DNA of 35,899 bases, taken from positions 1 to 35,899 of the forward strand of contig MNVG01000053.1 in assembly GCA_001871495.1 (NCBI GenBank), read 5' to 3'. This document shows, in pieces, positions 23-25,019 of this stretch. Under the pieces are notes generated by a model, which saw nothing but the letters and a program-made list of their open reading frames with translations, searched no databases and was not told the origin of the DNA. Each line of letters opens with the position of its first letter. Positions within the stretch are counted from its first letter, which is position 1. Source of the DNA: Candidatus Micrarchaeota archaeon CG1_02_51_15. GTDB lineage: Archaea; Micrarchaeota; Micrarchaeia; Norongarragalinales; UBA8480. A program made the position numbers and the translations under genes.

Positions 23-271
23 TTGAACGTACATCCTGTTGCAGTCGGGTGCGTCGTCAACGGCGGCCGTGTGCTTTTAGTCCATCACAATGCGCTTGGT
101 TTGTGGCTGCCGCCGAGCGGTCGCATCGAAGAAAACGGGGTTCCCGACGATGCGGTCAAGCGCGAACTTCGTGAAGAACTTGGGTTGGATGTCGAGCTCG
201 TGCAGTGGAGCGGCTTGTCCTTGGAAGGCAAGATAGTTCGGCAGTTGGCACAGCCGTTTAGGCTCTTTTGA
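23..271 (+). pseudogene. Nudix hydrolase, apparently C-terminally truncated
   Basis: Nudix-box-like GRIEENGVPDDAVKRELREELGL. The ORF stops early, just upstream of a palindromic structure at 283-354. Confidence 0.65.
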
Positions 272-282
272 GGCAGAACCCT

Positions 283-354
283 ACGGACTTCATTCGTTTT
301 GCCGCTGCAAAACGATGCATCTTTTTGTTTGCGGACAAAAAGCTTGTAGTCCGT
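283..354. repeat. Double-hairpin palindromic element enclosed by an outer stem
   Basis: Outer stem ACGGACT 283-289 / AGTCCGT 348-354. Inner hairpins CGTTTTGC-CGCT-GCAAAACG (295-314) and CTTTTTGT-TTGCGG-ACAAAAAG (321-342), separated by ATGCAT. All stems perfect. Confidence 0.7.
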
Positions 355-380
355 GGATGAATGCCTCATAGAAGGGGTTT

Positions 381-451: not shown

Positions 452-472
452 GGCCCGCCCTTCGGGCGGGCC
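452..472. repeat. Perfect inverted repeat (9-bp stem, 3-nt loop)
   Basis: GGCCCGCCC-TTC-GGGCGGGCC. Confidence 0.8.
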
Positions 473-630
473 CTTTGGATGTTCGCGCCACCGGACGTGA
501 TGAGTGTATGAGTAGCGTGAGCTTTGATTTGCAGGGGGGCATGGAAGTGCGTTTGGCGGCGCAAATTTCCATTTTATTTTTACGCCTATGTATCGCGCCA
601 AAGCATTTTCAGACAAAGGGATTAAACAAG

Positions 631-683
631 CTTTTCGCCTGCAGGCGAAAAGATGTCGTACAAACCGCCAGCGAGCGGTTTGT
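631..683. repeat. Double-hairpin palindromic insertion inside tnpA
   Basis: CTTTTCGCCTGCAGGCGAAAAG (631-652, perfect 22-nt palindrome), spacer ATGTCGT, then ACAAACCGC-CAGCGA-GCGGTTTGT (660-683, perfect 9-bp stem). Confidence 0.85.
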
Positions 684-693
684 TCCGAGAGGC

Positions 694-716
694 TTGCGAA
701 CGCGAGGCGTTCGCAA
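694..716. repeat. Perfect inverted repeat within tnpA coding sequence (10-bp stem)
   Basis: TTGCGAACGC-GAG-GCGTTCGCAA. Confidence 0.85.
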
Positions 717-859
717 TCGCAGGGCGTTTGAAGGTGGAGGTCGCTGCTTCAGAGTTCGGTCCGGACCACTGGCACTTGTTTGTTGTGCGCGCGAAAAACT
801 ATTCTGAGGTGGAACTAGCGCGGCGTTTCAAGGGCGCGACAAGCCGCGCCTTGCGGCGG

Positions 860-877
860 GACTTGCTGCAGCAAGTC
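860..877. repeat. Perfect 18-nt palindrome within tnpA coding sequence
   Basis: GACTTGCTGCAGCAAGTC. Confidence 0.8.
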
Positions 878-893
878 AGGAAATACGAGTGGG

Positions 894-911
894 GCGACCA
901 CTTCTGGTCGC
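894..911. repeat. Inverted repeat within tnpA coding sequence (7-bp stem, 4-nt loop)
   Basis: GCGACCA-CTTC-TGGTCGC. Confidence 0.6.
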
Positions 912-1043
912 ACGGCTATTTTTCAGAAACAATAGGACGCGTAACCACTGAAACAATCAAACACTATATCGAAAAAAGCCAAACCAAACACTGGCCACAA
1001 TCCAAACAAACCACACTAACCGCCTACTAAAACAAACCGGACG

Positions 1044-1063
1044 CCTGCCGCTTCAGCGGCAGG
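1044..1063. repeat. Inverted repeat just 3' of tnpA; possible right-end hairpin of the element
   Basis: CCTGCCGCT-TC-AGCGGCAGG, followed by a smaller TTGCC-AAT-GGCAA. Confidence 0.7.
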
Positions 1064-5461: not shown

Positions 5462-6619
5462 TTATGGTTGCACCCATTCTATTTCGTAGTACTCGTACTT
5501 GGATTTAGGCAGTTCTATTCTTTTTACGCGGTAGTCGGTCACTGCAGTCTCGCGGTCGCATATGCTTAGTATAAGGTCTAATCCCAACTGCCGTGCCTTC
5601 AATAGTGCCTGCGCCAACTCTGCTCCGCCGATTTCCTCTTCCTCAGACAACGCCAGCATCACGTACTTTGGACTGTCGGCTTTCGGGGTTTCGATTTCGC
5701 CTTTCTTGCGGTGGTAAAGCAGGAAGTCGAGTTCGGCTGCTGCTTCCTTCTTGACGCCGGGGATTGCAAGAATGAACGTTTTTTTAACTCCGTGTGCCAC
5801 GCGGATGGCGCGCGCCCATTCGCTTATCAGCATTTTAGCCTCGCGCGGGAAAACGTGTATGACGTGCTTGGAGTGCATCCATTCTTCCTGACCTAAAATT
5901 GGTTTGGCGCTCGGAAAATAGAGCCTGAAATGCGTGCCGAACTTGAAGCCCGTTTTCAAGACAAAGCCCCGCAGCCGCAGGTCTTCGTAAACGTCGTAGA
6001 GCGCCTTGAAGTCCGCGCGTCGTTTCGTTGCTTCTTTGAGCAACCTCGTTTCTTTTACGTTGAGCTTCAGTCCGCCGTGCCTCAAGAGGAACAAGGTCTC
6101 GTAAGCGTCGAGCTTCAACAACCGCCCGTGCTTTTTGGCCTTGTAAGTCCCCCATTGGCCGAACCAATTTTCTTCGTAAAGAGTTTTTGCCTTATCTTCG
6201 TCCAAGATGCTCATCATGTCGTCGCCGAAATAAACGGCCTTGAACGCAGCTGCCGGGCAAGCGAAATCGGTAGTAGGATATTTTATTACCGGGCTCCTTC
6301 CGTAAGGACCTGTTGCTTCCGTGATTGGTCGGGCAATCAACCCGCGGTCGCGCCAGTCGCGGTAACAAAAATAACGCGCCAAAAACTTAGGGCAGTCCTT
6401 AAAACCCGTGGTTGCCTGGTTGAATGAAATGCCGCGGCCTTTACGGACGCACTCTGCGTTCCTAACGTCAAGCAAATAAAGCGCCTCTTCAGGCTTGAGT
6501 TCCAAAACAGTCTTCTTACCTTGGAAGTCGCTACCGAAAAAACCGCGGTCAAGCGCCTGCACCGAAATAAGGTCGCGCACCAAAAACCTTCCGTCTTCAA
6601 ATTCGAATTGAACTCCCAA
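5462..6619 (-). CDS. endA: tRNA-splicing endonuclease, long single-polypeptide form (385 aa)
   Basis: Catalytic motif DLRLRGFVLKTGFKFGTHFRLY, then HSKHVIHVFP and AIRVAHGVKKTFILAI, with extra N- and C-terminal domains. Confidence 0.9.
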   Translation of the reverse strand: MGVQFEFEDGRFLVRDLISVQALDRGFFGSDFQGKKTVLELKPEEALYLLDVRNAECVRKGRGISFNQATTGFKDCPKFLARYFCYRDWRDRGLIARPITEATGPYGRSPVIKYPTTDFACPAAAFKAVYFGDDMMSILDEDKAKTLYEENWFGQWGTYKAKKHGRLLKLDAYETLFLLRHGGLKLNVKETRLLKEATKRRADFKALYDVYEDLRLRGFVLKTGFKFGTHFRLYFPSAKPILGQEEWMHSKHVIHVFPREAKMLISEWARAIRVAHGVKKTFILAIPGVKKEAAAELDFLLYHRKKGEIETPKADSPKYVMLALSEEEEIGGAELAQALLKARQLGLDLILSICDRETAVTDYRVKRIELPKSKYEYYEIEWVQP

Positions 6620-24134: not shown

Positions 24135-25019
24135 TTAGGGCATTTTCGGACCAAATTGACGGATTGTGCTAATAAGTAAAGGGTAAAGTTGTTCGTTTCG
24201 GTGGTTGAATCTGAATTCCATTTTTTTGACGTATTCGGGGTAGTTTTTGCGGTTGATTCCGTGGTATTTGTGGAAGCGTTCTTTGGCGAATGACCAGAAG
24301 CCTTCGATGCCGTTGATGTGGTTGTCGGAACAACGGCTTGCAAGCCGTTGTACGACGACGTTTCGCCAGCAGGCGAAACGCTCGTGTCCTTTGCCGAATG
24401 TTTTTGAGTGTTTGACTCGGTTGTGTTTGCCGTATTGTTTCAAGTCTTTGTAAGACTTGAAGTCGTCAGTGTAAAACATCGAACCTTTCCGCGTTTTCTT
24501 TTGAATGTGTTCGAACAATGTTTTTGCGGAAACGTCGTCAACAACTGCAGTGTAAACGCGGCCGTTTAGCTCTAAGATTCCGAATACTGCTTGCTTGTTG
24601 AACGCTCCGCGGCCGCGATTGCCTTTGCGTCTTCCACCGGAATAGGACTCGTCTGCAAGCGTTTTGTCCTGCCGGACAAAACGATGTGTCGAAAAGCCCG
24701 CCAGCTTTTCGAACACTTCGACGAGTCCGCGTAGTTTCTTGAACTCGTTTTCAGAGTATTCGATGATTGCTCGGCGAAACGCGGCGTAGCGTTTCGCAAC
24801 TGTTTCGTAATCCAAACAGAGTTCACGAGCGCACTTGCGTGCGCTTACTTCTAAATAAAAATAGTACAAGACTTTCAAATCGCGTTTGAGCTTGATCAAA
24901 CTATATTTTTTGCGGCAATTCTTACACTTTATACGCTTGTCACCGAGACGCGACAAACCATAATTGCCACAAAACCAGCACTTGCGACCATGTTCGTACA
25001 TAGCACTTCCAACAACCAT
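24135..25019 (-). CDS. IS1595-family transposase carrying two double-hairpin insertions
   Basis: N-terminal zinc ribbon CWFCGNYGL...CKNC; DESYSGGRRKGNRGRGA; MFYTDDFKSY; HINGIEGFWSFAKERFHKYHGI. Confidence 0.9.
   Translation of the reverse strand: MVVGSAMYEHGRKCWFCGNYGLSRLGDKRIKCKNCRKKYSLIKLKRDLKVLYYFYLEVSARKCARELCLDYETVAKRYAAFRRAIIEYSENEFKKLRGLVEVFEKLAGFSTHRFVRQDKTLADESYSGGRRKGNRGRGAFNKQAVFGILELNGRVYTAVVDDVSAKTLFEHIQKKTRKGSMFYTDDFKSYKDLKQYGKHNRVKHSKTFGKGHERFACWRNVVVQRLASRCSDNHINGIEGFWSFAKERFHKYHGINRKNYPEYVKKMEFRFNHRNEQLYPLLISTIRQFGPKMP
24330..24380. repeat. Double-hairpin palindromic insertion in the IS1595 transposase (copy A)
   Basis: ACAACGGCTTGCAAGCCGTTGT (24330-24351, perfect 22-nt palindrome), spacer ACGACGA, CGTTTCGCC-AGCA-GGCGAAACG (24359-24380). 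Confidence 0.88.
24660..24712. repeat. Double-hairpin palindromic insertion in the IS1595 transposase (copy B)
   Basis: CGTTTTGTCC-TGCC-GGACAAAACG (24660-24683), spacer ATGTG, TCGAAAAGC-CCGCCA-GCTTTTCGA (24689-24712). Confidence 0.88.
24774..24797. repeat. Perfect inverted repeat in the IS1595 transposase (9-bp stem, 6-nt loop)
   Basis: GCGAAACGC-GGCGTA-GCGTTTCGC. Confidence 0.75.

Follow-up and report, generated by a model that had tools for sequence, protein, structure and literature searches.

A double hairpin inside a Y1 transposase pseudogene of a Micrarchaeota archaeon as a probable copy of a small non-autonomous mobile element

The interrupted Y1 transposase gene

The window, i.e. the whole 35,899-nucleotide stretch of DNA analysed here, is contig 15 of the genome of Candidatus Micrarchaeota archaeon CG1_02_51_15 (1.13 Mb, 91% complete, 56 contigs). 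Near its left end lies an IS200/IS605-type Y1 transposase pseudogene, flanked by the probable hairpin ends of its insertion sequence and interrupted by a double hairpin arranged as CAAGC, hairpin 1, GATG, hairpin 2 and CCGA. A longer form of the same element precedes the pseudogene, and an IS1595-type transposase gene further to the right carries two more copies (Table 1).

Table 1. Features of the window discussed in the text
Feature	Position	Strand	Remarks
Long form of the element, 113 nt	258..370	-	outer inverted repeat TGAGGCA...TGCCTCA; core at 291-346, copy at 289-348
Y1 insertion sequence, left-end hairpin (probable)	452..472	+	GGCCCGCCC-TTC-GGGCGGGCC; unrelated to the inserted element; no element-model match
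Y1 transposase pseudogene (IS200/IS605-type, PF01797)	508..1030	+	ATG 508; G run slip 534-539; broken at 627-688
Double-hairpin element in the Y1 pseudogene	627..688	+	62 nt; covariance-model match and deletion-scan optimum; ends +/- about a base
Hairpin 1	631..652	+	fold; covariation over 15 copies
Hairpin 2	656..688	+	unpaired base on the 3' side near the foot; fold; covariation over 15 copies
Y1 insertion sequence, right-end hairpin (probable)	1044..1063	+	followed by GTAGTTCAC as in L040; no element-model match
IS1595/ISXO2-type transposase ORF (PF12762, 294 aa)	24135..25019	-	carries two in-frame element copies
Third element copy, 60 nt	24325..24384	-	in frame, same orientation as the IS1595-type gene; covariance model 62.8 bits; exact gap versus homologues
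Second element copy, 60 nt	24656..24715	+	in frame, opposite orientation to the IS1595-type gene; covariance model 71 bits; exact gap versus three homologues

As an earlier note on this DNA had stated, the pseudogene reads GGANFHFIFTPMYRAKAFSDKGIKQAF on the 5' side of the hairpins and REACEREAFAIAG on the 3' side, in different frames. The note further proposed that removal of 50 nt (633-682) repairs the frame exactly. Such a deletion does produce a single open frame, whose product matches Pfam Y1_Tnp (PF01797) with an E-value of 2e-25, compared with 5.4e-20 for the ORF 653-1030 alone, and resembles solved IS200-type transposase structures; however, it leaves four surplus residues relative to uninterrupted homologues. 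When all in-frame deletions between 600 and 720 were scored on two profiles built without the window sequence, the optimum on both was 62 nt. Deletion of 627-688 gave 136.0 and 149.6 bits, deletion of 633-682 gave 128.5 and 144.4 bits, and the downstream ORF alone reached 107.7 and 119.4 bits. The 50-nt junction was rejected on the basis of this length scan and the four extra residues. Nor is the repair exact, since a second frameshift further 5' leaves the gene broken even when the insert is removed. The product started at ATG 508, MSSVSFDLQGG, begins with MSS like the homologue in genome G215, and is one frame off the segment HGSAFGG. Judging from the sequence, the Y1 gene is broken twice: the insert is one lesion, and the other is the frame slip within the G run, unless that is a sequencing error.

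Uninterrupted Y1 homologues were found in genomes G215 and G167 (41-47% identity); a search of GTDB contigs gave no close relative of the transposase. No equivalent spacer peptide is present in uninterrupted homologues, and with 627-688 removed the protein aligns without gaps to those at loci L040 and L041. A third palindrome, near 697-716, sits within this gapless coding alignment and is not an insertion. Because the protein scan tolerates shifts, being nearly indifferent to placements from 622-683 to 631-692, the exact ends of the insert were taken from other copies of the element. The start shared by the three empty sites described below is the C of CAAGC or the next base, corresponding to 627-688 or 628-689 in the Y1 gene, and ends derived in this way coincide with the optimum of the independent length scan.

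Fold and distribution of the element

The fold of 620-735 is more stable than the average of shuffled sequences by 13.7 kcal/mol (z = -3.98), and none of 200 shuffles was as good. Two hairpins placed side by side make up the element core, and the second has one unpaired base close to its foot. The core is 56-67 nt long, most commonly 60, and in 11 of 17 copies the length is divisible by three. The frame CAAGC...GATG is conserved and the ends are CAAGC and CCGA or variants thereof, while the stems vary in sequence and still pair. Over 15 copies, double-sided changes occur in 22 of 24 pairs and 93.9% of the cells pair, a result equalled by none of 500 shuffles; sliding the structure by 1-3 columns abolished the signal. 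This alignment was fitted to the model and hence leans towards the structure, whereas the two-sequence MAFFT alignment and the single-sequence folds were not so fitted. A double hairpin on contig 13 shares AACAAGC, GATGTCGTACAAA and CCGA with the window copy, and six of its stem pairs are changed on both sides. The base on the 5' side of the core is a purine in all 17 copies, which is suggestive only, as the flanking columns belong to a model that leans towards AA; there is no longer motif, and no clear preference on the 3' side.

Exact searches with the linker GATGTCGTACAAA recovered only two structured copies, and none in 59 other genomes; the family becomes visible only by means of covariance models. 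A model built on two copies found eight in this genome and nothing convincing in the 59 relatives. With the rebuilt model, on which the genome copy count rests, about 18-20 loci were obtained in this genome, four of them in the window. Most copies in this genome are intergenic or lie within doubtful ORFs. Among 301 genomes of the class, 14 others matched at E <= 0.01, compared with roughly three expected chance matches, and nine of the 14 had matches below 1e-6. Scattered copies exist in about nine other Micrarchaeota genomes. The element was absent from the same-genus genome and the five same-family genomes checked. In a GTDB pattern scan, matches of at least 33 bits occurred only in Micrarchaeota and in one contig labelled uncultured archaeon. 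Bacterial matches of the 20-base GTDB pattern scan scored no higher than 24 bits on the model and were taken as chance palindromes, and three pattern matches in viral contigs, all at 16.8-18.4 bits, were unconvincing.

Genome G136 holds three copies with identical cores, and the 113-nt unit of the window is 96% identical to a copy on contig C26; by sequence, both point to recent spread. Copies L109, L185 and L186 (contigs C30, C16 and C44) form one subfamily. They are identical along 88-99 nt, of which some 40 nt are right flank, and represent a recently multiplied unit; two of the three lie at contig ends. Genome G033 contains two near-identical double hairpins (L125 and L126) with a long outer stem, GAGGGGGC...GGCCCCCT, and a weak model match of 28 bits; these may be remote relatives within the family. 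On contig C11, an MCM replicative helicase gene with an apparent LAGLIDADG intein (L114:2130-4100) adjoins an element copy.

Copies inserted into pre-existing genes

That the palindromes are insertions, as the earlier note claimed, is borne out by three further inserts in the same genome for which an empty site exists at the DNA level. Two of them are in the IS1595-type gene. Its homologues, two in genome G004 and one in G047, show 71-81% DNA identity and are colinear with it except for two 60-nt gaps, which fall exactly on two model matches. At 24656-24715 the junction (plus strand) reads CTCGTCTG|CAAGCG...CGAACA|CTTCGA against the empty site CTCGTCAGCTTCGA, with 1 nt ambiguous; at 24325-24384 (minus strand) it reads GGACA|CGAGCG...TTCCGA|CAACC against GGTCACAACC, with 2 nt ambiguous. 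The third insert, of 66 nt and likewise in frame, occupies a cupredoxin gene on contig 48, upstream of which the same contig carries an uninterrupted paralogue (92% protein identity). Here the paralogue has GGGTTAACGACGACC and the interrupted copy GGGTTAACGTGCG...TCGTACAACGACGACC, with 4 nt ambiguous. Together with the Y1 insert, at least four copies are shown to be insertions into pre-existing genes, three in number. Since the ambiguity amounts to 1, 2 and 4 nt at the three sites, a target-site duplication common to all of them could not exceed 1 bp.

The inserts of 60, 60 and 66 nt keep the reading frame open, whereas that of 62 nt in the Y1 gene does not. Overall, however, 11 of 17 copies have lengths divisible by three, and it is not clear that the host genes are functional; insertion in frame does not have to mean selection at the protein level here. 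The interrupted cupredoxin copy also has a premature TAA. In the IS1595-type protein both inserts adjoin presumed catalytic motifs, one just before ADESY and the other before HINGIEGFW. Despite its open reading frame, this protein may be inactive. At 24640-24735, the right flank of the insert, GACGAGTCC, shows perfect complementarity to the left one, GGACTCGTC, whereas the homologue with the empty site reads GATGCTTCC; this could possibly reflect quasi-palindrome correction after insertion, or chance.

Possible means of spread and relation to known elements

The copies constitute a structured, dispersed element family, and we put at about 75% the probability that the double hairpin belongs to a Micrarchaeota family of small, non-autonomous mobile elements. 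In the mechanism we propose, a core of about 60 nt would insert without needing a target-site duplication and with a purine on the 5' side. Its targets would be intergenic DNA and genes, other transposons included. Some copies have a further inverted repeat outside the core, so that the whole unit measures 90-113 nt. The folded single strand would be the form that is recognised and moved, as the stems change sequence freely while their pairing is kept. The most likely mover would be a single-strand transposase of the Y1 (HUH) type working in trans, in the way suggested for REPINs. Single-strand transposition of this kind, known from IS200/IS605, fits the lack of duplication, the apparent 5'-side preference and the conservation of shape over stem sequence. 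We favour a Y1 enzyme only tentatively, at somewhat below even odds.

No transposase partner was identified for the element. Of this Y1 type the genome has a single nearly full-length copy, which is broken, and the element model (R3) does not match the hairpin ends of the window's Y1 insertion sequence. Other Y1 insertion sequences lie at the ends of contigs C4, C6, C13, C31, C34 and C42 (L003-L008); in the parts covered, no ends shared with the element are visible. Multi-copy IS elements probably break the assembly, and intact Y1 copies may be absent from it. In the other carrier genomes, no element was found near a Y1 gene, and four carriers, G042 (about seven copies), G077, G079 and G213, have no detectable Y1 gene, although at 75-91% completeness such absence is weak evidence. 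As carriers of this kind exist, co-occurrence with Y1 cannot serve as proof of the mover. A conceivable but not probable alternative would be a lineage-specific Micrarchaeota element which, lacking a transposase dedicated to it, moves in folded single-stranded form through an enzyme of the host or through an unrecognised recombinase. Free drift of its stems would then follow from recognition being limited to the shape, the unpaired bases and a few fixed positions.

As a rule, DDE elements leave behind a duplication several bases long. It is unlikely that the element is a classical MITE, that is, an internally deleted DDE transposon moved through its terminal inverted repeats by a DDE transposase. 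IS1595-type transposases are present, and the unit as a whole is quasi-palindromic, several copies matching the model on the opposite strand too. Against this, no target-site duplication is needed, the ambiguity at 24656-24715 being just 1 nt, and what is conserved is the two-hairpin fold, conserved terminal inverted repeats being absent from the ends.

A structured RNA or regulatory element under selection, whose copies arose by ordinary duplication, would account for the strong covariation, the conserved unpaired positions and the predominance of intergenic copies and doubtful ORFs in this genome. We nevertheless regard it as quite improbable in view of the precise empty sites within transposase and cupredoxin coding sequence and the patchy distribution, with the nearest relatives devoid of copies; moreover, a search of eight element-bearing loci against Rfam returned 0 matches above the gathering score.

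Very little speaks for an archaeal intron cut out by the tRNA-splicing endonuclease, with the Y1 protein restored at the RNA level. Removal of the 62 nt does restore continuity from HGSAFGG on, and a splicing endonuclease gene is present in the window (5462-6619), but the predicted folds form no bulge-helix-bulge from the flanks and insert ends, a separate frameshift lies upstream in the Y1 gene, and three of the four coding insertions are open and multiples of three, which splicing would not require. Finally, it is hardly credible that the Y1 gene contains no insertion and is translated from ATG 653, within the element, where the ORF 653-1030 is open, or has a lineage-specific spacer, because the upstream frame matches the N-terminus of the family, the spliced form scores 28-30 bits above the downstream ORF alone on two profiles, and, when the 62 nt are omitted, no spacer is needed in the alignment to a profile built on 29 homologues.

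The mobile element that we favour may be compared with several known systems. The IS200/IS605 relatives called PATEs carry palindromes, leave no target-site duplication and show a preference on the 5' side only. The Micrarchaeota element likewise bears palindromes and inserts without target-site duplication (1-nt ambiguity at 24656-24715); unlike PATEs, its ends are not common to the window's Y1 insertion sequence. REPINs and BIMEs, moved by RAYT (TnpA-REP), are paired inverted hairpins, non-autonomous and recognised in single-stranded form (PMC3116915, PMC6006769). The element resembles them in that two inverted hairpins form one non-autonomous unit. REPs are defined by a tetranucleotide, GTAG or CGTC, which borders the palindrome on one side (PMC3733652), and the Micrarchaeota element lacks such a tag at the hairpin foot; neither was a RAYT found adjacent to it in the carrier MAGs, which are incomplete. 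In a 2018 survey, archaeal Y1 proteins belonged to the IS200 subclass only (PMC6006769). As both the tag and the RAYT association are lacking, we do not file the family under REP/REPIN.

Rickettsia palindromic elements (RPEs) and the Wolbachia protein-coding palindromes are short, lie between and inside genes, often in frame, and have no dedicated transposase known (PMC2229807, PMC3733652). RPEs measure 105-146 nt and occur in many conserved genes (PMC2229807). The present element is similar: it too is a short palindromic repeat, and in three of four coding cases it has entered a protein gene in frame. It differs, RPEs being compared by description, in its core of 56-67 nt, in domain and lineage, and in its hosts: instead of conserved functional genes it occupies an IS transposase gene, a duplicated cupredoxin gene that has a premature TAA, and a Y1 gene with a frameshift. 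Palindromes of M. jannaschii, archaeal repeats fused into protein genes according to a 2005 report as cited in PMC2229807, appear alike by that description, being archaeal and in protein genes; their host is a methanogen, far from Micrarchaeota. The nearest known systems are thus RPEs and the M. jannaschii palindromes by behaviour and REPINs by anatomy, and we read the Micrarchaeota copies as a new family of non-autonomous palindromic elements, set apart from RPEs by description.

Our literature searches found no earlier papers on such elements in Micrarchaeota or DPANN; RPE- or REPIN-like elements are so far known mainly from bacteria, with one archaeal report, from a methanogen. Owing to the clean empty sites, one of them a same-contig paralogue, and to diverged stems which still pair, the insertion rule and the recognised shape are directly measurable, which makes this family good material for testing how such palindromic elements move. 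In tiny archaeal genomes the element also gives rise to short in-frame insertions, and it can mislead gene annotation: the ORF 653-1030 begins at an ATG within it.

A separate matter is the longer units. Besides those in this genome, units of about 90-115 nt with an outer repeat were found in G042, G136 and G169. The outer palindrome of the 113-nt unit was not found in empty form among the element loci examined; the outer arms may belong to an older element of full length, or may be a target that the core prefers. A NUDIX-like ORF (23-271) at the left end of the contig is apparently cut short where the 113-nt form begins, at about 258-271.
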